64,000 bases of DNA from Gracilaria domingensis (Eukaryota; Rhodophyta; Florideophyceae; Gracilariales; Gracilariaceae). The position numbers were made by a program, and so were the translations under genes. Below the pieces are notes generated by a model that saw only the letters and a program-made list of their open reading frames with translations, was not told where the DNA came from and searched no databases. Below are positions 38,913 to 63,421 of this stretch, in pieces (the stretch's first letter is position 1; the number at the start of each line of letters is the position of its first letter). Where the stretch lies: assembly GCA_022539475.1 (NCBI GenBank), contig VCMS01000166.1, forward strand, positions 56,385-120,384, in the 5' to 3' direction.

Positions 38913-39348
38913 TGAGACAGCGTCTGTGTTTCCGGAACGCTATGTCAAGAGGCTAGAATGCTATTTTGTGGATTGAATCGTTAAAAAATGTGCAAAGAAT
39001 TGAATGTACGGCTATGTGCAAGCCAAAAAAAAAAAATTTTTGGATACCATACTTTCATTTATTCAAGCAATACTACAGAATTTGTAGAATGAGTGAAAGC
39101 GGACATAATTGCTAGTTCACCTCCATGACATGAAAGTTTTTGTACCTAGTATACTCAGACGGATTAGGTGGTAGCTCGATCTGGAAGCTACCAACGGCAC
39201 TTGCATACTTGTCGATTGCAAATAAACACAAATAATGAATGTAAACTAACTCTGGCTAGTACAACATTCATGAAATCGTAGTTGCGCACATCCATTCCCC
39301 CAACGCTTTTCTACCTCCATCAACCCGGCAACTACTGTATCACCTCAA
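38913..39348. other. Intergenic region
   Basis: AT-rich upstream region of the CXC gene and 3' flank of the coiled-coil gene. An A12-T5 run lies at about 39027-39043, and short inverted GTAGCT/AGCTAC elements occur at 39170-39190. No coding frame is visible. Confidence 0.4.
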
Positions 39349-40161
39349 TCAAAGTAAAGCACCTTCATCTCCTTCCTCTACCTCCACACCCGCGAATGAT
39401 AGCGTACGAAATTCTTTCCCATCATCATTCTCAACCGTTTCCTCCTCATCCTCCACAACATCCTCCCAGCTCCACTTCTCATCGTATCCAACAACACTGC
39501 TCCCTTTCCACACCGGCTTCGAAACAGTCCTGAACCCAACCCGTGTCCTCTTCTTACTATCCCGTTTTCCTTTCTTGTTCTCCACCTTCGGCTGAATTTC
39601 ATCCTCTTCTACCCCCACACTCCTCGGTTGGATCGGCCTCTTCTCGCCAACCTTCCTCTTCAGACCTCTCTTCCTCACCAATTCTCCCTCCATCACCTCA
39701 TCCGCCCCAAAACTATCCGTCGCCGGTACAAAGTCTCTCGCATCCTCGTTCTCGCTTCCGATGCACACTCCTACACCAACGCCGTTCACGATCTTCGTCT
39801 TCGGCGCCGGAGTTACCGGCGTTCCCTCCACACCCCCTACCCCGCCCTTCTTCCTCCCATTCACCTCCTTCGAGCTCCCCTCCAGATTCTCAATGCGTTT
39901 CATCATCATCTTCTGCTCCTCTTTCATCCCCCTCAGTTCCCTTACCACGAACCCTGTCACCTTCTTCGTCAGTCGACCCACGTCCTCTCCCATGCGCGTC
40001 CCCATCGCTCCGGCACACCCCAGCACTGCAGTGGCCCACCAGTCCAGCTCGTCCTTTTCTTCCTCCTCCTCGAACACACTCTTTAACTTCTTGTGCGACC
40101 GTACCCCTTCGTCCGACTCCCACGGCCACCTAATGTTCGAACGCGAATCGTCATCGCTCAT
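39349..40161 (-). CDS. Nuclear-type coiled-coil protein of the right-hand cassette (copy A)
   Basis: The 270-residue, strongly charged protein has an acidic N-terminus, a hydrophobic patch (WWATAVLGCAGAMGTRMGED), a coiled coil (about 62-98, VRELRGMKEEQKMMMKRIEN) and a GTPVTPAPKTK phrase. Lys/Arg-rich nuclear-localisation-like stretches (KNKKGKRDSKKR type) and an acidic C-terminus (VVEDEEETVENDDGK) follow. The general plan (coiled coil, then G-[ST]-PVTP-x-KTK, then basic tail) and the length are shared with the gene at 58541-59356, so I read them as distant relatives. No known domain was recognised. ATG 40161 is the first in frame. Confidence 0.6.
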   Translation of the reverse strand: MSDDDSRSNIRWPWESDEGVRSHKKLKSVFEEEEEKDELDWWATAVLGCAGAMGTRMGEDVGRLTKKVTGFVVRELRGMKEEQKMMMKRIENLEGSSKEVNGRKKGGVGGVEGTPVTPAPKTKIVNGVGVGVCIGSENEDARDFVPATDSFGADEVMEGELVRKRGLKRKVGEKRPIQPRSVGVEEDEIQPKVENKKGKRDSKKRTRVGFRTVSKPVWKGSSVVGYDEKWSWEDVVEDEEETVENDDGKEFRTLSFAGVEVEEGDEGALL

Positions 40162-40801
40162 GGTCGCGTTGGTAGAAGATCTGGTAGAAGAGCAAAAGGG
40201 ATATCGAAAGAAGAGAAATCAGGGAAGCCGAAAAGAACAGAACTCGCTGATCGTTCCTTCGCAAACCGATCACGGTGTACCAAGGGTAGACGCTTTCGTC
40301 CCATGACACTGTAGTACCGCCGCACCCGCTCATATCCGTCCAACCTCTGCATCGCAATTATTTTCATATTTACTAGCACAATTCTTCACTTTTGAACACT
40401 CTCTATGCTTTTCATTCTCCATGTTCTCCCAAGCGTTGCGAGAAGGGCGTCCCTTTTCATACATGGTTCATGCCAGTAGTATATGAAATGAAATCCTACC
40501 ACTACCATCATATCATGATTCTTCCGTCCTCTTCATCGCCCTACATTTTACTCTTCATGTACTCCGTCTCTTCATAGCTTTTCCATCACAGAAGCTAAGT
40601 TCGCCACTCGTTTATGAACACCTTCTTCACTTCAAATTTACAAGCCTTAAAGGAAACAAAACATAGATATAGCTCCTTCGATACACCTCTTTATAGGTAA
40701 TATCTGCTCGTTTCGTTCTCAATAAATATATCTTCTCCTCGCCCCTTCTTTCTTCATTTCTTCTCCTCTTTCCTACCTACTCACAGGCAGCAGAGCTCAC
40801 A
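40162..40801. promoter_or_regulatory. Divergent upstream region of coiled-coil and membrane-protein genes
   Basis: The 640 bp lie between head-to-head starts. AATAAATATATC at 40721-40732, 70-80 bp before the ATG of the plus-strand gene, is a good TATA candidate and is followed by a CT-rich leader. The third copy of TACCAAGGGTAG lies at 40278-40289. Confidence 0.5.
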
Positions 40802-42281: not shown

Positions 42282-44201
42282 TCAGTCCTCTTCGCCATCC
42301 TCAAGATCGTTTTCAATCTCCTCCACTTCATAATTCTCATCTTCGTCATCTTCTTCATACTGTTCTTTCCCTTCCTCTACTATCACCTCATCATTCTCCT
42401 CCTCCAAATTCGACGGTTCTGGATTCTTCCTCTTCTCCTTCATACTAACCAGGTCTTCATCCTCCTTGAACTGAGGTCGAAAGTGTGGGTTAAGGTGTAC
42501 CGCATCCGGGAGGTTGTATTTCTCAGGTACCATGTACATGTGGTAACGAAACAAGGGAATCTCGGGGAATCTTCCATCCTCATTTGAAGCGCCTGCATGG
42601 AACACATCACCTCTTCCAATAAATATAGACTTAGGCGGAACGAAAAACTTCCTCACAAACATCCCCCGTGCCAAACCTTCAAATGCCTTGGGAGTAACTG
42701 CGTAGTGTGTATGAGACCCTTCACATACCAAAATTGGAAACGACACACTTCCGGACACCATCATAAAGTACCCCGGGTTCTTCTTTTCTTCCAGCTTATC
42801 CTCATTCGCCAAGGTCGGGAAATCCGTATGTAACTGCTGCCGCTTGCATCCAACTGCAGTGCATAACACCCTCCGCCCCATCTTCGGCGCATACATCTTC
42901 TCGTTTTCCACCCTATTATCTTGTAAACCCATTAAAGCACATATCTGTCTCAGTCGGGCATCCAGTAAAGCTCTCTTCTTCACAAGCACATGTCTTTCTA
43001 CGGCTGCCTCCATGTCATCCACTATGCCTCTTCTCGTAGTCATGTACCTCCCACCATCTGCGTTGATGATCGGTATCCATGTGATTCGGTTCTCTGGTAT
43101 CCTAAGGTCTGGAGCCCTCTCGAAGTCCCTTCGGAAGAAGTCCAGTAATTCCACACTAACATCCCCGTCAATGAGCTTGCTTAAACTCTCTGTCAGCTTC
43201 ATCAACTCTCCATCCGATGCAAAGCCGTCCAGAATACAGAAACCTCTCTCTCGAAGCTCGACGTTCTTCTTCAAAAAATAGACATACGCAAGAGAGTCGT
43301 TCTTCAGTGCATCCCCCCATAACGTCTTCTCGTCGACCTCCATGCCTCCCATTGCCGCGTTCAGGAGTTTATGGCTATGATACGCTGCATGCCAAAAGAC
43401 TGCATGGTCCAAACTTTCAAAGTCCCTGGGCTCCAACAAGTGGCCTCGGTGTTGCTTCTGGAGATGTATCGCATCCATCCACGGGTACACAGATTTAATG
43501 ACATTCTCCACTCCAGTCGGCCACTTGCTTGGTAAGGTCTTCACCAACTTTAGCCACGAATCGTCACCTTCATATGCTACTTCTTCAGCCTTCTTCAGAC
43601 CTCGCGCCAACATCTGCGGTACTGTGTCATCGAACGGGTCAGTGTCCTCTGCCTGTGAAACCACAATTGGTACTCCATCTGAGTCTGTGTCGCTGCCGAT
43701 GGATATCTGATGACTTTTCAACAAGTTTCTCACCCCCTTCGCACCAAGACTCCGCAGATGACTGATAACTTCATCCTGAACAGATTGAATACCCTCCGTC
43801 CTTGACTTCTTCCGTTGATTAGGGTTCACGTGTCTCATTGCATTCCTTCGTCGACGGCTTCGTCTTGAACTCCTCATGCTTCTTGTCTTCGATGGCATAT
43901 TCTCTTCACTTTCTACATCACAGTCCTTAGAGCCCTTGCGCACTGGCGCTTTGGCCTTCCTACTTGCCGAACGTGTGGCCATTCTCTGCGTTGTAGACTC
44001 GTCTACCGCTTTGGTCTCAGACTGTGTTTCAGTCGGCGTAGTACCAGTGGCAGGTTTCAACATATCCACCCCTAAACTCTTTGCCAGCTTATCACGAGCA
44101 ATCCAGACTCTTCTCGAAATCCTTCCTTCCCAGAGCTTCTTATTCGAAGGTACTTCAATTCGTGCTGCCTGTGTTGCAAGGTACTCACGAACGGTGCGCA
44201 T
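42282..44201 (-). CDS. 2-oxoglutarate/Fe(II) dioxygenase-like protein
   Basis: The 639-residue protein (ATG 44201) has a basic, disordered N-terminus with nuclear-localisation-like clusters (RSSRRSRRRRNAMR), a helical middle, and a C-terminal double-stranded β-helix domain. Its metal triad is visible: QQLHTDFPT gives His458-x-Asp460, RGDVFHAGASN gives the distal His535, and LFRYHMYMVP supplies the Arg for 2-oxoglutarate. The stretch GFCILDGF is typical of phytanoyl-CoA-hydroxylase-like members. The tail is a long acidic run. Substrate is unknown: nucleic-acid or protein hydroxylation would fit a nuclear protein beside a ParB-like ORF, but this is inference. The ATG lies 1 nt after the stop of the ParB-like ORF, a very unusual spacing in a eukaryote. 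Confidence 0.72.
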   Translation of the reverse strand: MRTVREYLATQAARIEVPSNKKLWEGRISRRVWIARDKLAKSLGVDMLKPATGTTPTETQSETKAVDESTTQRMATRSASRKAKAPVRKGSKDCDVESEENMPSKTRSMRSSRRSRRRRNAMRHVNPNQRKKSRTEGIQSVQDEVISHLRSLGAKGVRNLLKSHQISIGSDTDSDGVPIVVSQAEDTDPFDDTVPQMLARGLKKAEEVAYEGDDSWLKLVKTLPSKWPTGVENVIKSVYPWMDAIHLQKQHRGHLLEPRDFESLDHAVFWHAAYHSHKLLNAAMGGMEVDEKTLWGDALKNDSLAYVYFLKKNVELRERGFCILDGFASDGELMKLTESLSKLIDGDVSVELLDFFRRDFERAPDLRIPENRITWIPIINADGGRYMTTRRGIVDDMEAAVERHVLVKKRALLDARLRQICALMGLQDNRVENEKMYAPKMGRRVLCTAVGCKRQQLHTDFPTLANEDKLEEKKNPGYFMMVSGSVSFPILVCEGSHTHYAVTPKAFEGLARGMFVRKFFVPPKSIFIGRGDVFHAGASNEDGRFPEIPLFRYHMYMVPEKYNLPDAVHLNPHFRPQFKEDEDLVSMKEKRKNPEPSNLEEENDEVIVEEGKEQYEEDDEDENYEVEEIENDLEDGEED

Positions 44202-44202
44202 T

Positions 44203-45483
44203 TCAAACTTTGTCACTTTCCACCTTCATGGCATACGCTTCTTCCAATGTAACTTTCTTCTTCTTCGAAAGCTCCTCTGGCAAAGATTGAAGCCTCCTGC
44301 AGCAGATAAAGAAGTATTTGCGTACGACTTCAAAACGACCCGTCAGTTTCGACACTCGCCTCCTGGAAAAGTATGCAACCAGAGCGTCGAGCGTGAAGTG
44401 GGTTGTATGCTCATCCATGGTAAAGAATTCATCACTTGATATACAAGAAATTCCAATCTCATGGTAGTCCCCACAAATCCGTTCCAAATGTTTTAGCAAT
44501 CCAGGACTTCTCGCCACCTTCAACCCCATCTCTGCAAATCTTGCCAAATGCTTGATATTGTACTGGCCAATGATACCGCAAACACTTAGTGCACCTGCGA
44601 CAGAGGTCCTCGTCATCTTGCTCACGTCCTTCTTCTCTTCCTCAACCAGGACCCTTATAAATGACACAATAGAATGCACCTTGTCAGCAAAACCCATAAG
44701 ACGAGCTTGCTTCAATCCATCGTTTAGCACATTGCCAAGGCTCAAGATTTCCTTCGTGGTCATCTTCTGTCCATCTTTTCTCTTCCACAGCGAAACAGAA
44801 AGACCTCGACATAGATTCCTAATGTTGGGCATAGATTCACAGAGCTCTTTGAGTGCTACATGACGATGAGCTCCATCAATCAGCATACAATTCACTTTCA
44901 AGCGATTGTTCTGCACTATGTCCTTCTCGGACACATCCTGAGACAGAACAGCAACGCTCATGGTCCCAAGTGCCTGTAAGAAGCTTTTGCGTCCAATCTC
45001 TTCTTTCAGAGCCTCGACATGATTCCGGAACAACCCTCTCACAGTCATTTTCGGAACTTGAATGAGCTCAATATCGACTTGAACAGACACATACTCGTAA
45101 TGATCTAAGTCAAATACCAAACTCGCTAAACTCGTATCGACATCATCAGGAGGTATCACATCACCTTCATCAAAGAGTTCATTGACGTTGCTTCCAAGGC
45201 TTTCCTTCACTAGAACCACGTCTTCGTCTTCGTCTTCATCCACGTCAATCACTTCCATTGTCACTCCACTGCGATTTCCAGCCTGAGTAATAGCTTCCGC
45301 AGTGCTGTTCCTCGATGCTCCAGACTGCACAATCTTAGCAGTTTGTTTACGAAATGCCGATACAGCACTCTCTGGGGTCGTGGTCATCTTGAATTCTTGC
45401 ATCTGCTTTCCACCACCGTGAACGTTCGATGGTGTTTTCAGCTTTGGTACTGGCGCTTGTTTCCCGCCTTGGTTTTTTAGCAT
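44203..45483 (-). CDS. ParB-like domain protein
   Basis: This is an open frame of 426 residues. The signature CMLIDGAHRHVALKEL (Asp203-Gly-Ala-His-Arg) matches the DG.HR..A motif of ParB/sulfiredoxin-fold proteins, which bind and hydrolyse nucleotides. It is preceded by VSVQVDIELIQVP (the usual strand before it) and followed by helical segments. N-terminally there are KTPSN repeats and an acidic SUMO-interaction-like patch (EVIDVDEDEDEDVVLV). The ATG at 45483 lies inside a KTPSN repeat that continues upstream in another frame (next entry), so the real start is probably ATG 45709 with a +1 frame change. The stop TGA overlaps nothing but sits one base before the dioxygenase ATG. Confidence 0.65.
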   Translation of the reverse strand: MLKNQGGKQAPVPKLKTPSNVHGGGKQMQEFKMTTTPESAVSAFRKQTAKIVQSGASRNSTAEAITQAGNRSGVTMEVIDVDEDEDEDVVLVKESLGSNVNELFDEGDVIPPDDVDTSLASLVFDLDHYEYVSVQVDIELIQVPKMTVRGLFRNHVEALKEEIGRKSFLQALGTMSVAVLSQDVSEKDIVQNNRLKVNCMLIDGAHRHVALKELCESMPNIRNLCRGLSVSLWKRKDGQKMTTKEILSLGNVLNDGLKQARLMGFADKVHSIVSFIRVLVEEEKKDVSKMTRTSVAGALSVCGIIGQYNIKHLARFAEMGLKVARSPGLLKHLERICGDYHEIGISCISSDEFFTMDEHTTHFTLDALVAYFSRRRVSKLTGRFEVVRKYFFICCRRLQSLPEELSKKKKVTLEEAYAMKVESDKV

Positions 45484-45709
45484 TCGACGGGGTTTTCACA
45501 TGAGCCACTTTCATCTGCATTCGCTTTCGGGCACTGGATGGAGTTTTAGGTTCTACCACTCGCACCCGTTTCCCAGCAGTATTCGATGGCTTCTCAGGGG
45601 CGACGAATTTGGAACTCGGAGCACCCTTGTCTCCTTCATCAGCGCTTACGACGTCACCCACCTTAGACATTAAGTTCAGGTCCCAGGCGTAGAAACCGGG
45701 CCTGTTCAT
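45347..45709 (-). CDS. N-terminal part of the ParB-like gene in another frame (KTPS repeats)
   Basis: ATG 45709 opens a frame (MNRPGFYAWDLNLMSKVG…) with EPKTPSSARKR and HVKTPSNAKKP. The same motif, KTPSN, resumes in the +1 frame as the start of the ParB-like ORF. The switch point is an AAAAAA run at about 45469-45475 (GCT AAA AAA CCA); one base fewer would keep the frame. A TTTAAG box and CCCTATCCCTATCCC repeats precede the ATG by about 45-65 bp. I infer one gene with a homopolymer frameshift, either a real mutation, an assembly error or slippage. Beyond the switch the frame runs on as a meaningless tail to 45347. Confidence 0.5.
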   Translation of the reverse strand: MNRPGFYAWDLNLMSKVGDVVSADEGDKGAPSSKFVAPEKPSNTAGKRVRVVEPKTPSSARKRMQMKVAHVKTPSNAKKPRRETSASTKAENTIERSRWWKADARIQDDHDPRECCIGIS

Positions 45710-46128: not shown

Positions 46129-46408
46129 TATATGGTGCCAGTTTGTGTGATATACACGAGTCCTGGTGTTCTTCAAATCGTACGTTTGCTCCCGTGAAGT
46201 TGCAACCGCTCGTGTTCGAATCTCCGCCCTTTCTCGCGTGAGCACAATGGACGCAACCACTCACGTTCAAAACGGCTGCAATGCCCACGTGAGCAGTGTG
46301 GGTACAGTTCCTGATGGTTATAAATGGTTGGATCAATGTCTGATTCCGTCCTGGTTGACCACTGTCCCCGCCTTTCATCATCTTTGAACATCGCCCGAGC
46401 GCCGTGTG

Positions 46409-46484
46409 GGAACCGCGGTTCGCCGAGTTCATAGCCGAGATCGTAGCTATGATCTCGGCTATGAACTCGGCGAACCGCGGTTCC
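46409..46484. repeat. 76-bp palindrome, left copy
   Basis: The sequence runs from GGAACCGCGGTTCGCC to its complement GGCGAACCGCGGTTCC, symmetric apart from one central G/A mismatch (ATCGTAGCTATGAT). It also contains the smaller palindromes AACCGCGGTT and GAGATC/GATCTC. Confidence 0.95.
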
Positions 46485-46905
46485 GGCACGGCGCATCTGA
46501 CGAAACGCCACGTGTATACCGCCGAAAGGACCCCCCCTGATGACCCCCCTGGAGGACCCCTTGCTGGCGTTTATGTGGGCAGTGACGTCGAATAAACGGG
46601 AGAGCGATGGAGACGCGGATGACACTTCGGACACATTGTGTAGCAAGCGTGGAAGACGGAGGGGAAGGGCTTGAGGAGGAGAGACGATGCGGTGGGAGCG
46701 GAGCAGCGCACGGAGGGCGGCGGCCATCGACGGGGCGTCACTTATTCACTGCCCACATAAACGCCAGCAACACCACCAGGTAGTGGTGGTGTGGGTGAGA
46801 ACAGGTGCTTTGGTGCGCATTGTGTAGTAGAAGTGGTCTCCAGGGGGTCCTCAGGGGGGTCCTTTCGGCGGTATACACGTGGAGTTTCGTCAGATGCGCC
46901 GTGCC

Positions 46906-46981
46906 GGAACCGCGGTTCGCCGAGTTCATAGCCGAGATCATAGCTATGATCTCGGCTATGAACTCGGCGAACCGCGGTTCC
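46906..46981. repeat. 76-bp perfect palindrome, right copy
   Basis: It has the same sequence as the left copy but fully symmetric at the centre (ATCATAGCTATGAT). It can extrude as a cruciform or fold as a 38-bp RNA hairpin. Confidence 0.96.
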
Positions 46982-47291
46982 CACACGGCGCTCGGGCGAT
47001 GTTCAAAGATGTACGAACCCAGTGTTTTCTACGTTGGTTTTACATACTAGACATATAATGCACTGCACATACTGAGGTGCCCCACCGGTTTGATGTGTTT
47101 AGATCCCACTCTCGTCTCTCTATTTCATTACCCGCTCAGTTCTCGGTAATCCGTCGCAACCGCGCTCTCCACCATTGTTTCCGACGCTTCCCGACGTTTC
47201 CGACGCTTCCCACCCATTTAAACATCTCCGAAACTTCTACCGTTTCACAATACTCGTTTACTTCGCGTCCTTTCCGATTCTCAGTTCTTAC

Positions 47292-48500: not shown

Positions 48501-49105
48501 TTTTTGGCGAGGGTCGTCCAGAAATTGGCAAGGGTCGTCCAGTAAATTTTTGAAAAAATATCGAGATCAATTATTTCAAAATCTGCAGATAATTGCTTGG
48601 GTCGTCCAGAATCGCTGTGCAGTAAATACTGGTGGGTTTTCCACTCGTGCTAGTTCTTTAGTCGAGGGCTACCTGAACTGTATTTCGCGAAGTCTAGGTT
48701 CAGTTTCCATTAAGGTGCACATTACACGATACCTTCTGCGGAATGATACCCTGCAACGCATGGAATACTAGTGCTAGTACAGATGATGCCCATTATGAAA
48801 TCATACCGTTTTATTCGTATCTATTCTTCTATCGACCGCTTTTGCTAACCACTACTTCGCTATATTACATGTACCATTTCCCCATGATGGATCGGGTGTA
48901 GGCGCAATCTGCGGCAGATGCCGCAGAGGGCAGCTGCACCAAATTGCGGTAACGGTAGAACACATACGCACTCCGAGAGGATGAGGCGCGAAGCGCCTCA
49001 TCCTCTCTGTTCGTCATGTAGGGAACCATGCCCAGATGCATGGTTCCCTACTTGAGGAACCTGCACCTGCAACTCGTGAGCTACGTACGCATCAAAAGTC
49101 ATTTA
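48501..49105. other. Intergenic region with two strong hairpins
   Basis: Hairpin 1 lies at 48975-49007 (GAGAGGATGAGGCGC, loop GAA, complement). Hairpin 2 lies at 49018-49052 (GTAGGGAACCATGC, 6-bp loop, complement). A TACTAGTGCTAGTAC near-palindrome lies at about 48765-48779, and GGGTCGTCCAGAA/TGGCAAGGGTCGTCCAG repeats follow the stop of the preceding gene (48515-48615). No coding frame is visible. Confidence 0.75.
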
Positions 49106-50368
49106 CCTGTATACGCAAGCGGAAAGTATCCATAAGTTAGTCAATGATCCGTTGGATACATTTGAAATGCGATGGAACGTACCATTGATAAAGCAAAACA
49201 GAAACGTTGCGCTAGAAAAGTCGAGGGACCTAGTAACTCGCAAAATGAAAAAGAAGAAGGAAAGGGATCGGTTAGATTACCAGCCCACCATCATCGTAAA
49301 GCGCGAAAGGGGTCGAAGCGAGAACTCACAACCAAAGACACCAAGAATGCCCATGCAGCAAACATACCTCAAGATGCGATAAACGAAAGAGCAGCCTATG
49401 TCCCAACCAAGTACCAGAATCACCTATCCCGAACAGCCAGAGATCGATCTTGAGAGACGAAATGAAATTGGTCTTTTTCCTGTATACGCAAGCAGAAAGT
49501 ATCCATAAGTTAGTCAATGCTCCGTTGGATACAGTTGAAATGCGATAGAACGTACCATTGATAAGAGCAAAACAGAAACGTTGCACTAGAAAAGTCGAGG
49601 GACCTAGTAACTCGCAAACGGAAGAAGAAGCAGGAAAGGGATCGGTTAGATTACCAGCCCACCATCATCGTAAAGCGCGAAAAGGTGTCGAAGCGAGAAC
49701 TCACAACCAAGGACACCAAGAATGCCCATGCAGCAAACATACCTCAAGATGCGATAAACGAAAGAGCAGCCTATGTCCCAACCAAGTACCAGAATCACCT
49801 ATCCCGAACAGCCAGAGATCGATCTTGAGAGACGAAATGAAATTGGTCTTTTTCCTGTATACGCAAGCAGAAAGTATCCATAAGTTAGTCAATGCTCCGT
49901 TGGATACAGTTGAAATGCGATAGAACGTACCATTGATAAGAGCAAAACAGAAACGTTGCACTAGAAAAGTCGAGGGACCTAGTAACTCGCAAACGGAAGA
50001 AGAAGCAGGAAAGGGATCGGTTAGATTACCAGCCCACCATCATCGTAAAGCGCGAAAAGGTGTCGAAGCGAGAACTCACAACCAAGGACACCAAGAATGC
50101 CCATGCAGCAAACATACCTCAAGATGCGATAAACGAAAGAGCAGCCTATGTCCCAACCAAGTACCAGAATCGCCTATCCCGAACAGCCAGAGATCGATCT
50201 TGAGAGACGAAATGAAATTGGTCGTTTTCCTGTATACGCAAGCAGAAAGTATCCATAAGTTAGTCAATGCTCCGTTGGATACAGTTGAAATGCGATAGAA
50301 CGTACCATTGATAAGAGCAAAACAGAAACGTTGCGCTAGAAAAGTCGAGGGACCTAGTAACTCGCAAA
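49106..50368. repeat. Tandem repeat, 375-bp unit, 3.4 copies
   Basis: Units begin with CCTGTATACGCAAGC at 49106, 49479, 49854 and 50229 (spacing 373, 375, 375 bp). The last unit is cut at about 50368. Copies 2-4 are almost identical; copy 1 differs at more sites (for example AATGAAAAAGAAG versus ACGGAAGAAGAAG). Because 375 is divisible by three, open frames recur on both strands, but they begin and end arbitrarily and are not accepted as genes. The position 5' of the Plavaka transposase fits a subterminal repeat of that element. Confidence 0.93.
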
Positions 50369-50696: not shown

Positions 50697-51060
50697 GCGG
50701 AGTAGAACGCGAGGATGGCACGGATCACCACGGTAACAAAAGATCGGACGTCGGACGGGCGGGAGCGGCGGCGGAGGGAAGAGATTTATTTTTCTGTGCG
50801 AGATTGGACAAGTGTACAGCGTACAACGTTGGGAAACCAGAGGTTTATAACCAGTGGTAGATAATACGAGAAGTACACCCTTGTGTTGAGGTCGACGTGT
50901 ACCTACGTTCCTTTTTGAACGAAAGCACGTGATTTAAACTCAAAATATATTCTCCGTTCTGAGCAACACGTCGATCTTGACTGTCGCTCGACCTCCTTCT
51001 CCCTTCGGACGCCCTTCCCTTGCAGTCTTTGTCGTCGTTTCTCGTTCATTTCTTCTTCCC

Positions 51061-53445
51061 ATGGTCTACTACTGTACACATAAGAAGCGTGGGTGCCCCT
51101 TCGTTACTCGCCGAGGAGTCTTATCTCTTCAACAGCATGTCAACCATTGCCCGTTTCGTCTGAAAGCAGCGCTGGAAGACGACAATAGCCGGCCCTTTCG
51201 GAGAAGCAAGCGTCTCAAGCTTTCCGCACCCGCGCCCGCATCTTCCGAAACGGTCACTGCCCCTTGTCGCCTTCCCGAGCCTCCAGTGTCCGAGGACATC
51301 GTCGACCCCACTCCGTGCGCCCCTCCCATTCCGGACACTTCGCATTGTGTTTCTCCTTCCCCGGGTCCCGCGTCATTAGAGCGAGAACACGGAAGCAGTT
51401 CCCGCCCAGTGCCTTCTGAGGAGGCCCTTGGTGATTTGCATATGGATTATCTCACGGTTTGTCTGGCTTCAGTAGCTTCCAACCTTGGTCATCGTGAGGC
51501 GGACGAGCTAATTGGGCTACTTCGGGACCCGCGATTCTCGCAAAAGCGATTCAACGAGACCATAACAAGTTCCAAGCGCTGTACAGAACTGAAGAACGCC
51601 ATTTTCGAACGATACGCCTCAAAGGACGGTTTCAATCGCAGAACTGTCTCGCCAGAAGGATGTAAGTTCAGCGCCACCCTCCACATGAGAGACCCCGTTC
51701 AGACACTTGTGAAACAGCTCCAGTTGGCTAACAACGAAAACTCATTCTTCCACCCTATACCTCAGACCCACTCCACGAAAATATCTCACCCCATGTCCGG
51801 CTCTCTCGCAAGAGACGCCACCTCAAAACTTAAGGAAATGGTCATGGGCTCTTTGGATAGTAGAATAGTGTGGTACTCCCAAGAAATAAGTTACAGTGAA
51901 TCTTTCGTAGGTCTTCTGCAGGCATACACCGATAAGTCTTCAACAACTCTAAAGCAAACATCGGTTACCGCCTATCCTCTTCACCTCATATTTCTCAACT
52001 TCTCCGACGAGCTTCGCCGTAAGTGTATCCGTGATGACCTCACAGTAGTGGCATACTTCCCTACCACACTGATCGAGGTTTCCGCATCTGAAGCAGACGC
52101 AATGCCATTTGTTTCTAGCAAGTCTCTACGCGAGTCCAGGATGCAAATCCTTCAAGAATCTCTTCGTCAAGTCCTGGAGCCCATTCTAAATCTCACGCAG
52201 AAAGGTTTTCAGTTCATCGGGGAAGACAAACTAAGTCGAGTGTGCCATTCTCTGCTTGCAAGTTATTGTGCGGATATTCCTGAGGCTAAGGACATTCTGT
52301 CCATTCTTCATGGGACCAAAACGGAAAGCCCGTGTCATAGATGCAAAGCCCCTCGCTCATCTTTATGCAGTCCTATTCCCACCTCATTCAACGGACGTTC
52401 TCAAAAGCACACGAAAAGCATCCGAAAGACATACACAGCTATCTTGCAACATGCACAAAAAGACGAGGCGGAAAGACGTCCACGTCGTGCGAGGGAGAGG
52501 AGATCTCAAGCGGATACTCTGATGCGTTCAAATTCCATATCTCTCATTCCTTCGTTCCTCGAAACTTCCGTAAGCCTTGGAATGATCCCGGGATTGTCTC
52601 CATACAGTCTGTTCTCATTCGAACCATTACACAACTTGCATCTCGGCATCTCAAAGTTGATAAAAACGGCCACAATCGAGAGACTGCAGTCAGACACCCT
52701 GTGCACCACAATAGGAACATCTGCATCGCGTTCAGTTCGAACGATACGCACCCAACTCCTCAACCATGCAAACGCAATTCTAGCTGCCATAGAACGCGAT
52801 TCTCCTGCCAAAGGTTTACATATCGATTTCTCCACGCAGGAGAAAGGCAAATCTTTGAATGGTATCTTCACGAAAGACGGTCTCTGTGGAATGCTGGAGG
52901 CCAAAAACTACAAAGCACTTGACATGGTCTTTCCCTTCATAGGAGCATTCTTTGACATATGCTGTGGAGAACAGGACGTTGCCCCAATCACAACCGTTTT
53001 CTCTCAGTACTCGGACTTGCTCTCGACCTTATTCAGGTACAATCGTGACCCGTATTGGACTGAAAGCTCTCTCCTGTGTCTTAGTTTGGAGATTGAAGCC
53101 CTCAAGCGTTCCGCAACAAAGACTCTGGCGGATTTTCATCCTTCCAGACTGGGAACTCTGAAGTTTCATCTTCTCGATCATCTCGTGGACGATATTCGCC
53201 GTCTGGGAAGTATCAAGTACTACGACGCAGGCATATACGAACATGCACACCTGCTATTTAAGAGACACTACAAAAAGACGTCCAGAAGAAGAGCAACGGC
53301 TGTGGAGGAGACTATTCGCTCCATTGAGCACGGAAATGCTAGAAAGCAATGGAATGGCAATACTCCTTACCAGCGTAATCCAGGTTTACCAGGAACTTCC
53401 ACACAGCTTCCTCGGTTTGCAATGAGAGGGCGTTCTTTCACTTGA
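51061..53445 (+). CDS. Plavaka-type DNA transposase (CACTA/CMC-like)
   Basis: The frame gives 794 residues from ATG 51061. The N-terminus has a zinc-finger-like Cys/His set (YYCTHKKRGC…QQHVNHCPF). The core matches Plavaka transposases: a YTDKSSTTLKQTSVTAYPLH phrase followed by LIFLNFSDELRRK and VAYFPTT, then CHRCKAP, then FEPLHNLHLGISKLI (metal-site His region) and a C-terminal FKRHYKKTSRR. These resemble the 'YsDkt..t….ayPvyl…n…..R….llgYlPt' signature of the family. It would cut and paste the element by its terminal repeats. The reading frame stops at TGA 53443-53445 but the same frame continues as conserved-looking sequence (next entry), so this copy is either spliced by a tiny intron or damaged. 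Confidence 0.75.
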   Translation: MVYYCTHKKRGCPFVTRRGVLSLQQHVNHCPFRLKAALEDDNSRPFRRSKRLKLSAPAPASSETVTAPCRLPEPPVSEDIVDPTPCAPPIPDTSHCVSPSPGPASLEREHGSSSRPVPSEEALGDLHMDYLTVCLASVASNLGHREADELIGLLRDPRFSQKRFNETITSSKRCTELKNAIFERYASKDGFNRRTVSPEGCKFSATLHMRDPVQTLVKQLQLANNENSFFHPIPQTHSTKISHPMSGSLARDATSKLKEMVMGSLDSRIVWYSQEISYSESFVGLLQAYTDKSSTTLKQTSVTAYPLHLIFLNFSDELRRKCIRDDLTVVAYFPTTLIEVSASEADAMPFVSSKSLRESRMQILQESLRQVLEPILNLTQKGFQFIGEDKLSRVCHSLLASYCADIPEAKDILSILHGTKTESPCHRCKAPRSSLCSPIPTSFNGRSQKHTKSIRKTYTAILQHAQKDEAERRPRRARERRSQADTLMRSNSISLIPSFLETSVSLGMIPGLSPYSLFSFEPLHNLHLGISKLIKTATIERLQSDTLCTTIGTSASRSVRTIRTQLLNHANAILAAIERDSPAKGLHIDFSTQEKGKSLNGIFTKDGLCGMLEAKNYKALDMVFPFIGAFFDICCGEQDVAPITTVFSQYSDLLSTLFRYNRDPYWTESSLLCLSLEIEALKRSATKTLADFHPSRLGTLKFHLLDHLVDDIRRLGSIKYYDAGIYEHAHLLFKRHYKKTSRRRATAVEETIRSIEHGNARKQWNGNTPYQRNPGLPGTSTQLPRFAMRGRSFT

Positions 53446-53975
53446 CGAGCTCTTCAACATTGTGTTTCAAGTATGTCCAGTTCAAAAACATGGACTGCTG
53501 TTAGAGAGATGTTCTCAAGTACGGACACAAGGTCGATTCTTGATCAGATTGGTGAACAGGCCCTTCCTCCTTTCCTCAGTCTCGTGAAAGAAACACTGGA
53601 TGAGCGCTCTATTACATACTTCCCAGAAAAGACAAGGATAACTCTGGTGAATTCGGCCCTCGTGAAAGGCGGTTTCGTTCCGACTCTTGAACACTTCGAT
53701 TCGTCTTCTAAGGCACTTAAGCTGGGACGACACAAATACCCCATCATCCAACGTGTCTTCGCTTCTCCAGCATTTGGTCCCAGTAGAAAGCCAAAGTTTT
53801 CCACTGTATTGGTAAGCGGAGAAGATTCAGAGACTTGGGTTGCCCAGGTAGTCGCTCTGATGTCGGCCACGTCGCGATTCGGAGCTATTGCAAAGGTCGC
53901 GTATTGTGCTAAAAGTCGCGGATCAAGTGGGTGTGAAGCGCTAGTTTTCTCTAGTTTGATATGTGTGCACGGCGT
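53446..53975 (+). pseudogene. C-terminal continuation of the Plavaka transposase, cut by a repeat element
   Basis: Directly after TGA 53443-53445 the same frame stays open through MSSSKTWTAVREMFSSTDTR… and GRHKYPIIQRVFASPAFGPS…KFSTVLVSGEDSETWVAQVV, which fits the poorly conserved Plavaka C-terminus. A 57- or 66-nt intron (donor at 53415, acceptors at 53471 or 53480) would keep phase, but its donor GTTTGC is weak. The frame then enters the palindromic repeat element at 53976. Sequence after that element (from about 54640, …LAPLSTCIRGSRLYMEVNEC) may be the displaced end. Confidence 0.5.
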
Positions 53976-54640
53976 GTGCAGCGAAATCACTGCCAGAAGA
54001 GCCGGGAGGAGTGCTTTCGAAGGTCTCCGGAGGGTGCCAAAATGTGGCCAGAACGTTCCCGCGGGCGGAGGGGGTCGGTCGTGTTAGGGTAGCTACCCTA
54101 CCACGACCGGACCCCCCCGCCCGCGGGCACGTTTTGGGCGATGTTTTGAAAAATGTGCGATTTCATGCCCGCGGGCGCGGGGGGTCGCGAGTGTTAGGGT
54201 AGCTACCCTAACACGACCGGACCCCCCCGCCCGCGGGCACGTTTTGGACGATTTTTTGAAAAATGTGCGATTTTATGCCCGCGGGCGGGGGGGGTCAGTC
54301 GTGTTAGGGTAGCTACCCTAACACGACCGGACCCCCCCGCCCGCTGGCACGTTTTGGACGAATTTTTGAAAAATGTGCGATTTTATGCCCGCGGGCGCGG
54401 GGGGTCGGTCGTGTTAGGGTAACTACCCTAACACGACCGGACCCCCCCGCCCGCGGGCACGTTTTGGACGATTTTTTGAAAAATGTGCGATTTCATGCCC
54501 GCGGGCGGGGGGTCCGGTCGTGTTAGGGTAGGTACCCTAACACGACCGACCCCTCCACGCTCGCGGGCACGTTTTGGCCACATTTCGGCGCCTTCCCGGG
54601 ACCTCCCAAAACACGCCGCCCCGCAGTGATTTCGCTACAC
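53976..54640. mobile_element. Element with terminal inverted repeats and five 110-bp palindromic repeats
   Basis: The ends are inverted: GTGCAGCGAAATCACTGC at 53976 and its counterpart GTGTAGCGAAATCACTGC reading inward from 54640, with imperfect similarity for about 100 bp (…AATGTGGCCA.AACGT.CCCGCG…). Inside, a unit repeats at 54081, 54191, 54301, 54411 and 54520 (spacing 110, 110, 110, 109). Each unit holds a palindrome around TTAGGGTAGCTACCCTAA flanked by CGTG/CACG and G/C-rich arms, then GCACGTTTTGGACGA…TTTTTGAAAAATGTGCGAT. There is no coding capacity. Confidence 0.85.
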
Positions 54641-54996
54641 CCGGCCGCCGGTACGTTGGCGCCGCTGTCCACGTGTATTCGCGGGAGTAGGCTGTACATG
54701 GAAGTAAATGAATGTTCTCTTGACTACTATGCAAAGCATTTGAAGAGCATGATTAGAGAGCGCGACCATTGCTCGCGTGAGTCATCATTGCGCGAACTCC
54801 ACGACTCTAAAGCGTACAATCAGCGTGCGAGCGGCCACGGACAGGACACGGACGAGACTGGCAGTGCGCTGGGAGGAGCTGCCGAAAGCGGGGGTGCCCA
54901 GCGTAAGTCGCCATTTAAAAGGCTCGCATCCGTTCTTGTATCGTCCAGAGCGAACGTATTGTTGATATACACCTTTCACTGCAATAGCTGTTCAAC
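54641..54996. promoter_or_regulatory. Upstream region of the 54997 gene
   Basis: A TATA-like CATTTAAAAGGC at 54911-54922 lies about 80 bp before ATG 54997. The left part may contain a displaced end of the transposase frame. No other signal was recognised. Confidence 0.45.
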
Positions 54997-57473: not shown

Positions 57474-57794
57474 AAGGATGGAGTTGGATTGCGCCCGAAT
57501 ACGTCTATAAAGGTCGTAGAAGCACTTATGAACGAAGGAGTTGTAGACATGTTATTGTTGATGACGGTGGAGCCAGGGTTTGGTGGACAGGCGTTTATGG
57601 AGGGTGTTCTTGACAAGGTGCGACATGCAAGGGAGTTGTACCCAAGAATAGGGATACAGGTGGATGGGGGTATTGGACTGAGTACTGTGAAAGGAGTAGT
57701 GAAGGCCGGTGCAAACATTTCAGTTGCAGGATCTGCCATCTTTGGCTCGAGTAACCCAGCTCATGTCATAGCTGGTTTTCGAAAGGTTGGTTAG
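57474..57794 (+). pseudogene. C-terminal fragment of ribulose-phosphate 3-epimerase
   Basis: From 57474 (after TAA 57471-57473) the frame reads KDGVGLRPNTSIKVVEALMN…DMLLLMTVEPGFGGQAFMEG…IQVDGGIGLSTVKGVVKAGANISVAGSAIFGSSNP. This is the second half of an RPE TIM barrel with its phosphate-loop and catalytic-Asp (VDGGI) motifs, about 105 of a usual 220-230 residues. The first half, with the metal-binding His residues, is absent upstream. AAAAG before GATGGA could be an old splice acceptor. There is no ATG at the expected place. It is most simply a captured or truncated gene piece in a mobile region, unlikely to be active. Confidence 0.8.
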
Positions 57795-58195: not shown

Positions 58196-58540
58196 AGGTG
58201 GGTGGGGACTATGTGAAGAGGGGACAGAGAGATGGCGCTTAAATATTGGAAGGTGCGGAGGTGTACAGTAGATGTTTTGGCGGGAAATGGGATGAAGGAA
58301 ACAGGGACAATCATGGTGCTGGATATAGCCCGTGTGGTTGGACAGTGGGGGTGGACAGCACAGTTTAGCTCGATTGCACTGTATCGCAGCGGAAACTTCG
58401 ATCCAACTACTACTTCTTTTTCTGAAGATGTCGAACGGATACGTGAAAGATGAGGAGCTGTTGGCGCTGTTGGAGGGGAGGAGGTACCGCAGACGCCGTC
58501 ACCAAAGCGGGAAGAGGACGTGATTACGGCGGCTGGTCGG

Positions 58541-59356
58541 ATGTCGGAGAAGAAGGAAGTGGCCGATGAAGGAAAGAAGTGTGAGGCGAGGAGAGGGGAT
58601 GGTGATGAGGTGGAGAAGGGGGTAGAATTGGAGGTGGAGGGGGTCGCAATGGAGAGAAGGGGTGCGGTGCATCTGAGTCAGTTAGAGGTTGGAGACCAGA
58701 TAGTGAGTGGGGGCGGAGAGGGTGACAGGGAGATGCGGTTTGTGGGGGAGATGAAGGCGAGGGTGGGGATGTTGAGGTTGGTGATGAAGGAGCAACTGGA
58801 CGATGGAATTGTGGAGATTGTAACGGAAATGGGCGGTGTGGTGCTGAGTGGGGGTGGTAGTGGTGTTTCGGTTGAGGCGATTTCGAGCCTGCGGAATTCG
58901 TTGTCGGTATTGGGAGTGGAGATGAGAAATCATGTGTATGGGATAGTGGAGTGTGCGGGAAGGGAGGTTGGAGAGTTGCGGGAGGAGAATAGGGTTCTGA
59001 ACGAGAGGTTGGACGTGCTGGAGAAGGAGGTGAAGAAGCTGTGCAAGAGGCAAAGATTGGTGGAAGAGGAGACGGTGAAAGGAGGTGTGGAGGGAAAGAC
59101 GGAGAAGGGAAGTGTGGGAAGGGTGGCGGTGCAGAAGGGGTCTCCTGTGACACCGAAGACAAAGGGTGGTGGGGTTGGGGATGGGAAGAGCCGTCTGAAG
59201 AAGAGGCGTAAGGAGATGAAGAAGGTGGTGGAGGAGGTGCCGCGGGAGGGAGTGGGAGCTCCGGTGGTGACTGGGTTTAGGAGTGCGGCGGAGGTAGCGC
59301 GGACTGCGAAGGGGATTCTGAGGGGACAGGAGGAGAGAAGGATGGGAGGGATTTGA
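58541..59356 (+). CDS. Nuclear-type coiled-coil protein of the right-hand cassette (copy B)
   Basis: The 271-residue protein from ATG 58541 is Glu/Lys/Gly/Val-rich. A helical region (GEMKARVGMLRLVMKEQLDD) leads to a strong coiled coil at about 125-165 (LREENRVLNERLDVLEKEVK), then KGSPVTPKTKGGG, basic clusters (KSRLKKRRKEMKK) and GAPVVTGFRSAAEVAR. Length, the coiled-coil position and the PVTP…KTK phrase parallel the product of 39349-40161, although overall identity is low. The codon composition is unusual, being rich in GAG, GGG and GTG. No known domain. The upstream frame continues to a GTG only. Confidence 0.58.
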   Translation: MSEKKEVADEGKKCEARRGDGDEVEKGVELEVEGVAMERRGAVHLSQLEVGDQIVSGGGEGDREMRFVGEMKARVGMLRLVMKEQLDDGIVEIVTEMGGVVLSGGGSGVSVEAISSLRNSLSVLGVEMRNHVYGIVECAGREVGELREENRVLNERLDVLEKEVKKLCKRQRLVEEETVKGGVEGKTEKGSVGRVAVQKGSPVTPKTKGGGVGDGKSRLKKRRKEMKKVVEEVPREGVGAPVVTGFRSAAEVARTAKGILRGQEERRMGGI

Positions 59357-59744
59357 AGCCGTTTTGGGGCGAGGCGGGTATACGAGAAGGGGGAGAGTTG
59401 TGCACCTGACTTCTACAAAATGAACCCGTGATGGGCGAGAAATGGGTAAATAGCGGGGGTGGTGTGGACTGGGAAGAAGTGATGGGATGATTGAGGTGGG
59501 ATGAGTTGCGATTGGCATTGCAACATGGGAGAAAATGGAAACGCAAACTAGCACGAGTGCAGTTTTGAGAGAGGGTCGCGGAAAAGAGTGAATGGGGTGG
59601 TGCGGCGAAGTAGAACCTCTACAAAAACTAGGGGACCCAAGAACTAAACTGCGCGAGATGGAATTTAATATTCCAAAATTTCTTAATTTTTTGAGTGCCA
59701 GCCTCTGCTACCCCCTCGCGCGCCCCAAATAGACCCAAAACTAG
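59357..59744. other. Region before the methyltransferase-SET gene
   Basis: No confident gene. The motif ACCTCTACAAAAACTAGGG and an AT-rich block around 59660-59695 may be promoter sequence. A first exon of the downstream gene could lie here but was not identified. Confidence 0.35.
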
Positions 59745-60095
59745 CTTAGTTTCCAAAGCGAACAGACTATATTCCACTTTGCAGAACACAGACGTAACCT
59801 CCAACCATCTCGACTTATCCCTAGGGCCGCTTTTTCAGGGCAGGATGGAGGAAGTAATACCGTCACGGTTAAGGTTGAGGACTCGATACAGATTCCGAGC
59901 TCCTCCAAGAGGAACGCCGCAGGGAAAAGCTCAGTTAACTCCGATGTCATCGTCATCCTCGATAGCGACAATGAAGAAAGTGATACACCTGGTGCCTCTG
60001 TTGGGGCGAAAGATAACGTTCCAGATGGGGTTCTCCCCCCTCATGACTTTGATGACACGCGCACGTTAAATGCTCTAGATGTGGTGCGAGGAAGC

Positions 60096-61778
60096 ATGGA
60101 GAAGCAATTCTCAATGCATTGTGTCGGATATGACGAACTGGTGGAGGCCCATGGTACTATCTTCCCATCGGATACATCTTTGGAAGGCAACGTTCAGTTC
60201 GTGCTCACAGACCCACCATATGGCATCCGCGACAGCGAGTACGACGAATTGGCTGACGATGATATGGACAATACTGCGGACATCATGGCATCCATGCTTC
60301 GACCAGGAGGACATTTCGTTTTGTTCTGCAGTATCGACCAGTTTGGAGACTGGGAAGAGATTTTGCGAGAGCACAAGTCGGAGGACGCAAGCGGAAAGAA
60401 AACCGCATCATTCTTAGTGGATTCGACGCCCATGAACTTCATTCGTTCTCGTTCGAACCCCTTGAAGAACCCTGCGCGTAATACTACTCGCCTGTTTGGG
60501 GCGACGGAGTACGCCGTGCATGGCGTGAGAAATGGAAACCCGTACGCGGAACAGAAGGTAATGGTGAACTATCAGAACTTCAACTACGTTTCAGCTCGCT
60601 ATCCTGGGCACTATTCTATCATTGACCAGGTTCCAAATCTTACGCCTGGGGAGAGTCTCCGATGGAGAGTGAAGAGTGGTAGAAGAATTCGAACCGCGAA
60701 GGCTCGTCCAGAACAAAAGTCGAGGCAGCTACTGATGGAGCTGATAGCGAGGTTCTCGAATCCCGGGAATGTTGTGGTTGATCTCTACTCCGGGACGTTC
60801 TCGTGCGCGCTGGCATGTATGGATATTGAGGGGCCTCCGCGTTTCATTGGATTTGAGCAAGATGAGCAGTGTTTCTCTCATGCCAATCACAATGCTATTG
60901 TGCATTACGCAAGAAAGGTGTGGCGCAATGAATTGAAGATGAAAGAACCGGTTACGAATGAGGTAGTTCAAGCGTCTTATGTGGTGGATGCCAAATTTCC
61001 TGAACGGAAACGAAAGACTTCGACTATATGGAATGCACCCAAGGGATTCCCATCGTACCAATCTTTACCATTCCATATCATGTCGTACCTATCCACCTAT
61101 TGTAATGAACCTGGTCTTATCACTACGTACAAAGAGAAACCGTTCCATGAGTGGCCACTTGCCTTACAAGGGAAGATGACTACGTTGGACAGTCACACTT
61201 TACTCTCTGTCGAGGCGACATCGCTATGGCTCTATGTGAAGAAGTCGAATATCAAACATGCAGCAAGTGGAAATGGAGTATTTACGAGTAGGGCGTTTTC
61301 CGAAGGGGAGGTTATTGGATACTTTTATGGGACCTTGGTGTATCATGATCTAAGCCGACGCAATACCACACATTTGACGTATGGAGACGGAATGCTGGGG
61401 GCCACTGCATCTCGGTTCAGGAAGTATTGCATGCAAGTGAGGGTGAAGGGGCAAATGTACAACACTCTCCCGCATTATGATACTGAAGTCAACGCTGGTC
61501 ATGCCTGGATAGTTCCTGCTCCTTTCTGTGTAGCGGGCTATATCAATGACGCGTCATATCGTGAAGGTGATGAGGACAAGGAATTGGAAGAAATGGATTC
61601 TAACATGGCACGCAAACCAAATGTATTCATTCGCCAGCCCACAGAGTATCAGGCTACAACTTTGGGGCTTTTGGAGAACTACAGACTCCTCGTAGTCACG
61701 GCCTCAAGGGACATTAAGGAGCACGACGAAATTTACGTTGACTATGGACCCACATATCCTTGGGAAAGGTTAACCTAG
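60096..61778 (+). CDS. DNA N6-adenine/N4-cytosine methyltransferase fused to a SET domain
   Basis: From ATG 60096 the product is 560 residues, but the frame is open and coding-like from 59745 (including VIVILDSDNEESD), without an ATG, so a 5' exon is probably missing. Residues about 30-260 are a β-class methylase: motif IV LTDPPYGI (Asp39-Pro-Pro-Tyr42) comes first and motif I VVDLYSGTFSCALACMD (from about 227) later, as in M.HinfI/CcrM. From about 385 a SET domain follows: GNGVFTSRAFSEGEVIGYFY, GYINDASY (NH-motif position, about 480) and DIKEHDEIYVDYGPTYPW (about 540-557). SET domains methylate protein lysines. Both halves keep their key motifs and so may be active. A single chain joining DNA and protein methylation is unusual. 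Confidence 0.82.
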   Translation: MEKQFSMHCVGYDELVEAHGTIFPSDTSLEGNVQFVLTDPPYGIRDSEYDELADDDMDNTADIMASMLRPGGHFVLFCSIDQFGDWEEILREHKSEDASGKKTASFLVDSTPMNFIRSRSNPLKNPARNTTRLFGATEYAVHGVRNGNPYAEQKVMVNYQNFNYVSARYPGHYSIIDQVPNLTPGESLRWRVKSGRRIRTAKARPEQKSRQLLMELIARFSNPGNVVVDLYSGTFSCALACMDIEGPPRFIGFEQDEQCFSHANHNAIVHYARKVWRNELKMKEPVTNEVVQASYVVDAKFPERKRKTSTIWNAPKGFPSYQSLPFHIMSYLSTYCNEPGLITTYKEKPFHEWPLALQGKMTTLDSHTLLSVEATSLWLYVKKSNIKHAASGNGVFTSRAFSEGEVIGYFYGTLVYHDLSRRNTTHLTYGDGMLGATASRFRKYCMQVRVKGQMYNTLPHYDTEVNAGHAWIVPAPFCVAGYINDASYREGDEDKELEEMDSNMARKPNVFIRQPTEYQATTLGLLENYRLLVVTASRDIKEHDEIYVDYGPTYPWERLT

Positions 61779-62241: not shown

Positions 62242-63421
62242 ATGGCTCCTCAACGTGCGGAGCATGCAGGTGGTAAACCGCGAAAGGCATCGGTACCGCC
62301 GGAGCGCTGGGATACTGGGGTGGCCAAACGTAGGAGCGCGGTCGTCTCACGAAGTAGTGCTACTAATGGGAGAGGTAGCCGAGGCCGAGCACCTCGTGCT
62401 GGACTTCGCAAACCAAAATCTTCATCTACAGTATCGGAAGTAAAACCGAGAAGGAGGTCAGGAGCTTCCACATGCACTACGGAACGCACAGTAAGTGAAA
62501 CCGTTCAAGCCAAGGATAGTGCAATGCGTGGGCCTGTTACACGCCACATGGCTGCAATGGAAGAGCCAAGGGTCAGTGATGATGGAAATGTAGATATCAA
62601 AGCGATGAAAGGAAATAAGAGAAGAACGGGTGTACGTCAGAATGTAAGGAGGACAAGAGGCAGTGGAGGAACAGAAGGTCCTCGTATCGATGATTGTTTC
62701 GAAAAGGTGAGAACTGCGGATGACAATGCGGAGATGGAAACCGTGGATTGCGCCATCGTGAGAGCCGAACCTAGAGCCGAACCTGGGGATAGGGAGATAC
62801 CCAGAAGCGCTGCCGGAACAGAACGTAGCAGTTATGATTCGAGAAAAGTGAAGAGGAACGAGAAAATGAATGAGGGTGTCTCTCGTGCCAAGAAAGGCAG
62901 TGGAAGAAAGGAGCGGGAGTCCACGGACGCAGTAGATATCTCAAGTGACGTCGAGGACAAGGATAACGTGGAGGCGAACGATAACGTGGACGCCGGAAAT
63001 GCAACGCATATGGCTCCCATCGAAGGCAGGCATGATTCCGTCCCTCACATTGGGTCCAGACACAAGGAAGACGAAGACGAAGACGAGATACAACCGACCA
63101 CCAGTCACAGGTGAGTCACAGAGAAACAGGTTCAATCAGGTCAGAAGAAGGACGAACCATGGAAATGAGAATAGACGGGTGGGGAACGATTGGCAACCTG
63201 TCATAGCAAACGCCCGTAGAGAAGTATGGAACGATAAAGATGTGATCGTGGTGCTTGTCAAGGAGCTTTCCCTGCATGGTGCAATGGAAGAAGATGAAGA
63301 TGAATCCTCACTCCGCGATACGAGCTTTTGGAAAAGATCGGGAACTGAAGGAGATCTGTATCGGTACAATAGAGGACAAGCAAAGTCGAAAATGACGTAC
63401 GACTTGCTCAGAAGAACATAG
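62242..63421 (+). CDS. Basic nuclear-type protein, one 64-nt intron
   Basis: Exon 1 (62242-63110) starts MAPQRAEHAGGKPRKASVPP and is rich in Arg, Lys, Ser and Gly, with acidic/SUMO-interaction-like patches (VDISSDVEDKD) and EDEDEDE near its end. It stops at CACAG before a GTGAGT donor; the next in-frame codon would be TGA. The intron 63111-63174 ends in ATAG. Exon 2 (63175-63421) keeps phase and gives RRVGNDWQPVIANARREVWN, DVIVVLVKELSLHG and …MTYDLLRRT. The total is 371 residues. The exon 2 part looks folded, the rest disordered. No known family. It lies just after the MTase-SET gene on the same strand. Confidence 0.58.

Follow-up and report, generated by a model that had tools for sequence, protein, structure and literature searches.

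A single reading frame joining a beta-class amino-methyltransferase domain and a SET domain in the red alga Gracilaria domingensis

RESULTS

Two methyltransferase families in one frame

Our analysis identified one frame in which a permuted (beta-class) amino-methyltransferase domain precedes a SET domain, each of them recognised separately, in the window, by which we mean the whole 64,000-nucleotide stretch of Gracilaria domingensis DNA under study. This arrangement is most likely a real two-domain methyltransferase in which a eukaryote acquired an amino-methylase of phage or bacterial type and fused it with SET. That the protein acts as a working dual writer, on both DNA and chromatin, is a prediction to which we would assign a probability of roughly 0.4. 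The neighbouring genes in the window, encoding WDR3, LsmAD/Ataxin-2, G-patch and COX24 proteins, mark the stretch as eukaryotic nuclear DNA.

The two families named in an earlier sequence-only reading of this DNA both scored above their curated Pfam cut-offs in the frame. PF01555 (N6_N4_Mtase) reached 47.8 bits against a cut-off of 26.7, covering positions 1-219 of the 221 of the profile, and PF00856 (SET) reached 29.3 bits against 22.4, covering positions 1-105 of 105. The frame also matched PHROG 67 (DNA methyltransferase) at 1.1e-21. Two independent HMMs, one built from 27 phage or viral MTases and the other from 20 viral SETs, with the window sequence left out of both, reported the fusion ORF at 1.2e-22 and 2e-5, respectively, and in each case it was the sole report at E<=10 among the 475 window ORFs of at least 60 residues. 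As expected, a profile comparison between the methylase and the SET alignments revealed no relation between them.

Extent and coding character of the frame

59745-61778, forward strand: whole stop-free frame, 677 codons plus stop
59837-59838, forward strand: candidate 3' splice site (pyrimidine-rich, ctttttcag; cag at 59836-59838), proposed from sequence and codon score
60096-60098, forward strand: first in-frame ATG, at which the earlier interval started

The sequence-only reading had claimed one continuous frame, and the length of the frame bears this out, since its 677 open codons compare with a longest stop-free run of 371 codons in 100 simulated 64-kb sequences (second-order Markov model, window composition), and zero stops interrupt either domain between 59745 and 61778 (+). 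The interval start at 60096 was right in so far as this is the first in-frame ATG, from which a 560-aa protein would be read, but the frame is already open from 59745, 351 nt upstream, and contains no in-frame ATG in that stretch. These 351 nt may be coding too, and an upstream exon feeding the frame is possible. At the candidate acceptor the codon score turns from negative (59700-59849) to positive (59850 on); the site is absent from the filtered acceptor list, and neither a matching donor nor a start codon was identified for it.

The training set of the codon score consisted of 11 further long ORFs from the window, and the score was compared among the six frames in 150-nt blocks. Between 59850 and 61799 the fusion frame scored above zero in 13/13 blocks, being positive on either side of the methylase/SET junction and across it, and was the top frame in 11 of the 13; it was beaten at 60600-60749, within the methylase half, and at 61050-61199, within the linker, by frames that contain stops there. 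The linker block itself scored weakly, at about 0, and the block 59700-59849 scored -0.11. Because stop-containing upstream blocks of the fusion frame also scored +0.15 (59400-59549) and +0.10 (59550-59699), the codon score shows modest discrimination and constitutes weak evidence. Third-position G+C was 0.57 in the MTase, 0.50 in the linker and 0.48 in the SET half.

These observations bear on the explanation that no functional fusion exists, the locus having become a pseudogene, resulting from an assembly join, or holding two genes that share one open frame by chance. Such an explanation would fit the missing in-frame ATG before 60096 and the near-zero score of the linker block, but the excess of open codons over the simulated maximum and the stop-free course through both domains argue against it, and we consider it quite improbable.

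Two further segments of the same frame may be relevant for the behaviour of the protein:

59946-59981, forward strand: VIVILDSDNEES, hydrophobic core plus acidic/Ser tail, in the same frame and ahead of the first ATG
60885-61268, forward strand: open linker

The first of them resembles a SUMO-interaction motif. The linker showed no family match in Pfam and includes the basic stretch KFPERKRKTS (60993-61022), which appears NLS-like by eye.

The methylase half

60192-60884, forward strand: beta-class amino-methyltransferase domain (PF01555), from Pfam, PHROG 67 and the HMM of 27 relatives
60210-60224, forward strand: motif IV DPPYG (catalytic), from the alignment with 27 relatives
60705-60722, forward strand: RPEQKS replacing HPTQKP, from the alignment; PxQK at 60708-60719
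60780-60803, forward strand: motif I DLYSGTFS with the second Gly missing, from the alignment
60843-60863, forward strand: FIGFEQD, with the acidic residue past motif I; E (60855) kept in 27/27 relatives

The order of motifs in this half (DPPY, PxQK, D...G, E) is that of the beta class, in agreement with the earlier description of a beta-class methylase with DPPY first: DPPY at 60210 precedes motif I at 60780, within the domain that scored 47.8 bits with PF01555. The same description had a FxGxG-type motif following, which is not literally present because the second glycine of motif I is lost, the actual residues being DLYSGTFS. The residues D.PY, P.QK, the motif I pair D and G, and the E are shared by 28/28 aligned methylases; within DPPY, the D, the second P and the Y are kept in 27/27 relatives, and the first P varies. 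Thirty-one alignment columns show at least 90% conservation across the 27 relatives; the window methylase agrees with 17 of these and departs from 14, among which are HPTQKP, the second motif I Gly, and one Glu and one Arg present in 27/27 relatives. Its identity to the aligned relatives is only 19-25%. The methylase of phage phiA047 likewise has no second glycine in motif I (GSF), and the relative L031 has GAA; a full GxG motif I, in place of which the fusion has SGTF, thereby appears to be usual rather than strictly defining for beta-class methylases.

Matches to the methylase half were distributed over at least 33 GTDB loci and at least 52 viral loci, from many phyla and phages, and its descent therefore appears to be bacterial or phage in kind, with no donor nameable. 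Among the matches listed, those covering most of the domain were mostly 20-26% identical, the best segment reached 42% (L110), and short C-terminal matches showed 29-56% identity. Regarding the target base, bacterial motif IV is given as SPPY in most N4C enzymes and as DPPY in N6A enzymes in the part of PMC8885841 available to us; on this split, the DPPY of the fusion favours N6-adenine, which suggests that the methylase half targets N6 of adenine in DNA. It could be argued instead that this half modifies RNA or protein, given that METTL3/IME4-like amino-MTases (DPPW) modify RNA, according to the same partial source (PMC8885841), and that the target-recognition region lacks close relatives. 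However, the matched families PF01555 and PHROG 67 are DNA methylases, accompanied by weaker matches to CcrM-like NCBIfam models (far under their cut-offs) and to PADLOC Type II methylase models, and a target other than DNA seems very unlikely.

The SET half

61269-61748, forward strand: SET domain (PF00856) with a long internal insert, from Pfam, viral-SET HMM, alignment and fold search
61539-61556, forward strand: YINDAS, aligned with (I)NHSC of other SETs, the Asn kept and the His replaced by Asp, from the alignment
61725-61748, forward strand: DEIYVDYG, the catalytic-Tyr motif, from the alignment; the protein ends nine residues later

This half had been regarded as a complete-looking SET domain, an impression that stands for the full PF00856 profile, the Asn and the Tyr, but not for the His of INH, which is Asp, nor for the post-SET region. 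It retains the G.G, IN, PN and the Tyr of DYG; post-SET cysteines are absent, the protein stopping nine residues after DYG. Post-SET zinc cysteines occur in many histone lysine methyltransferases, but not in all of them.

The Asn of YINDAS and the Tyr of DYG kept the same register with the 20 viral SETs in six alignment runs, the Asn matching in 20/20 (at INHSC), the Gly in 19/20 and the Tyr in 18/20; the stretches of L084 and L096 (2/20) stop short of the Tyr motif. Nineteen columns are conserved in at least 90% of these viral SETs, and the window SET keeps 10 of them and loses nine, namely His to Asp, Ser to Ala, Cys to Ser, the last Cys of PNC to Val, Leu to Ile and four post-SET columns, although the unanimity of the viral sequences at His and Cys exists by construction, because the comparison SETs were picked by the pattern INH(S/T)CxPNC. 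A weak match to a bacterial SET effector model was also obtained in NCBIfam (E 0.088).

An AF2 model of the SET half, built with 21 sequences, had a mean pLDDT of 54 and a pTM of 0.52, with 73/275 residues at 70 or above, and its core blocks (residues 91-130 and 221-260 of 275) reached pLDDT 71-94. Foldseek searches with this low-confidence model retrieved MLL3/MLL1, SETD8 and vSET at E 1.0e-6 to 3e-5, together with SET7/9, and 135 of 461 matches had E<=0.001; the query-normalised TM was 0.28-0.37 among the 50 matches listed of the 461, and the target TM for vSET was 0.74. Against a viral structure library, the top named matches were giant-virus SETs, together with some phage SETs. The model lends tentative support to a SET fold in this half, a support that is partly circular because SET sequences were used to build it. 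A single-sequence AF2 model of the 560-aa protein (pLDDT 29) was discarded, and a combined MTase+SET alignment for AF2 was dropped because its SET rows were out of register (Asn 0/20, Tyr 0/20).

Taken together, the substitutions in both halves raise the alternative that one half only is enzymatic, the methylase serving as a DNA- or cofactor-binding module for an active SET, or the reverse. The changes at 14/31 near-invariant methylase columns (HPTQKP, the motif I Gly, the Arg and the Glu) and at 9/19 SET columns, with His replaced by Asp and no post-SET cysteines, would fit such a division of roles. Nevertheless, the core residues are kept (D.PY in the methylase, Asn and Tyr in the SET), the phage relative phiA047 also dispenses with the second motif I glycine, and the His/Cys unanimity of the comparison SETs arises from the pattern by which they were selected. 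We regard this alternative as somewhat unlikely.

Search for relatives carrying both domains

With the whole protein as query, scans of viral and prokaryote contigs (exact 8-residue patterns, of low sensitivity) yielded no relative that combines the two domains, nor did the SET half as query find a close relative in viral contigs by the same low-sensitivity patterns. Likewise, the 2,749 ORFs from 89 MTase loci of phage, viral or bacterial origin, which have short flanks, gave no SET match (E<=1). In the converse comparison, a single methylase-profile match (E<=1e-3) was obtained in 1,309 ORFs of 40 SET loci. It belongs to the viral contig L092, which carries a SET gene at 571-975 (-) and a beta-class methylase, L092_-_8872_9660 (reverse-strand coordinates), as separate ORFs.

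Genomic surroundings

34918-36051, forward strand: PCIF1_WW-like ORF, E 7e-7, 29.4 bits, below the cut-off of 31.1
46379-47011: two copies of a 96-bp near-perfect palindrome, 94-96% self-complementary
49098-50368: tandem repeat, 375-bp unit, 3.4 copies, 97% matches
50938-53442, forward strand: Plavaka transposase ORF, E 6.5e-18
54058-54577: tandem array, 110-bp unit, 4.7 copies
57474-57791, forward strand: ribulose-phosphate 3-epimerase, C-terminal half only (PF00834 positions 108-198 of 198)

The fusion had been placed next to repeats and a transposase. Tandem arrays do lie in the same 30 kb, but the Plavaka ORF is 6-9 kb away, with other ORFs between, among them the epimerase ORF, which is either a fragment or one exon. 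The Plavaka copy may be decayed, given that behind an in-frame stop at 53443 an open stretch (to 54084) continues into the 110-bp array. In each 110-bp unit, inverted arms of 36-37 nt (89-92% complementary) flank a TTAGGGTA/TACCCTAA core, and the array sits inside a larger 75% inverted repeat at 53973-54643. The PCIF1_WW-like ORF, for which PDB returned a PCIF1 match at E 0.95 only, may be another methylase of adenine-N6 type within this repeat-rich region.

On these grounds the fusion could be cargo of a mobile element or of an endogenised large virus, marking the DNA and chromatin of the element and evading or exploiting host silencing. The Plavaka ORF, the tandem arrays and the PCIF1_WW-like ORF within the same 30 kb would be in line with such an origin, as would the SET genes carried by HarbingerS and MuDR transposons (PMC12730594) and the Dam-like MTases in DIRS retrotransposons (PMC5890265), both as given in the parts of these sources at hand. 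Against it, no inverted repeats of 20 nt or longer were detected between 54 and 64 kb, the 110-bp array region excepted, a result that blastn reproduced, no tyrosine recombinase was recognised among the window ORFs scanned, the epimerase fragment and other ORFs separate the fusion from the transposase, and the coiled-coil ORF upstream of the fusion is not significantly related to ORF 39352-40218. The window ends 2.2 kb past the fusion gene, and the right end of an element may lie beyond. We consider this origin rather unlikely; being a statement about origin and purpose, it can be compatible either with a dual writer or with activity of one half only.

Several candidate assignments in the window were rejected. 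A homology suspected by eye between the coiled-coil ORFs 58454-59353 and 39352-40218 was dropped, as its score (BLAST E 0.021) was reached by 8/200 shuffles. ORF 44206-45495 and ORF 42285-44225, which looked by eye ParB-like and dioxygenase-like, respectively, received no support from Pfam, PHROGs or PDB; the ORFs within 42285-45495 (-) comprise 647 and 430 aa, with acidic runs and no convincing PDB match. A 941-aa ORF at 36117-38939 (-) likewise gave no notable Pfam, PHROG or PDB match, and by eye it shows a cysteine-rich C-terminus of CxC type and a nuclease-like middle part. Directly 3' of the fusion gene, 62242-63110 (+) encodes a basic low-complexity ORF that ends at a consensus-like donor, CAG|GTGAGT (63111), and may run past the window end. 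A protein with a Hint module (PF01079, E 2e-33) is encoded at 16747-18561 (+).

DISCUSSION

Proposed mechanism and significance

Under our preferred interpretation of the fusion as a dual writer, the methylase half, descended from a bacterial or phage enzyme, would methylate N6 of adenine in DNA, and the SET half, with its own S-adenosylmethionine, would act at that same site on a lysine of a histone or another chromatin protein. The acidic SUMO-interaction-like segment and the basic linker could help to recruit the protein to chromatin that is silent or rich in repeats. By analogy, the two marks laid together might constitute a 'DNA-write plus histone-write' variant of the two-protein loop proposed for bdelloids. 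A more specific version, in which one polypeptide writes 6mA and a nucleosome lysine mark and was perhaps spread by a giant Plavaka-type element setting its own chromatin, appears unlikely on the present sequence data.

In plants and in bdelloids alike, DNA and histone marks are laid by separate, mutually reading proteins, CMT3 and KYP in the former and N4CMT and SETDB1-like enzymes in the latter, according to the portion of PMC8885841 consulted. If the proposed activity is true, the presence of both writers in one chain would couple DNA and histone marks without a reader, and self-reinforcing silencing could be tested with a single gene. The fusion would also be one more instance of an amino-methylase of bacterial type that became part of eukaryotic chromatin biology.

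Comparison with known systems

The methylase-SET fusion appears to be a new domain architecture built on known families, because the literature listed shows no such fusion and the known related designs are N4CMT, SETMAR and the SETs or methylases borne by transposons. No paper on a DNA methylase-SET fusion was found in this literature, which was searched through titles and abstract openings and covered few subscription papers, in keeping with the earlier claim that such a fusion is not commonly known. The part of a brown-algal chromatin survey accessible to us describes numerous SET proteins but, apart from DNMT2-type tRNA enzymes, finds DNA methyltransferases of the DNMT1/3/5 kinds to be absent, and makes no mention of a methylase-SET fusion (PMC13076208).

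On the side of the methylase, PHROG 67 and the beta-class methylases of phages and bacteria share with the fusion the same domain, motif order and D.PY, with HMM E-values of 1e-21 to 1e-22; they differ in an identity of only 19-25% and in the lack of any SET match (E<=1) at the 89 short-flanked loci scanned. On the side of the SET, vSET, SETD8 and MLL share the SET profile, the G.G, Asn and Tyr motifs and, on the low-confidence model, a fold match, whereas the fusion has Asp for the His of INH, no post-SET, a long insert and a DNA methylase attached. SETMAR, as far as the source at hand describes it, combines SET with a transposase, the partner in the fusion being a DNA methylase instead. The SET of HarbingerS and MuDR travels with a mobile element (PMC12730594, seen in part), whereas that of the fusion has a DNA methylase as partner and its link to an element is unproven.

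SETDB1 and KYP couple the state of DNA methylation to lysine methylation, as the fusion is predicted to do; they read DNA methylation, whereas the fusion would write it (PMC8885841, in the part available). The closest known protein to the fusion is N4CMT of bdelloid rotifers, which the same partial source describes as a captured bacterial amino-MTase with a chromodomain that lays 4mC at transposons, and whose N6_N4_MTase is stated there to be without eukaryotic homologues (PMC8885841). Both proteins have a permuted PF01555 methylase of bacterial type, encoded in a eukaryotic nuclear genome, and a C-terminal chromatin domain. They differ in that this domain is a chromodomain, a reader, in N4CMT and a SET, a writer, in the fusion, and in that N4CMT carries SPPY (4mC) and has demonstrated activity, whereas the fusion carries DPPY and its activity is predicted (PMC8885841, as excerpted).
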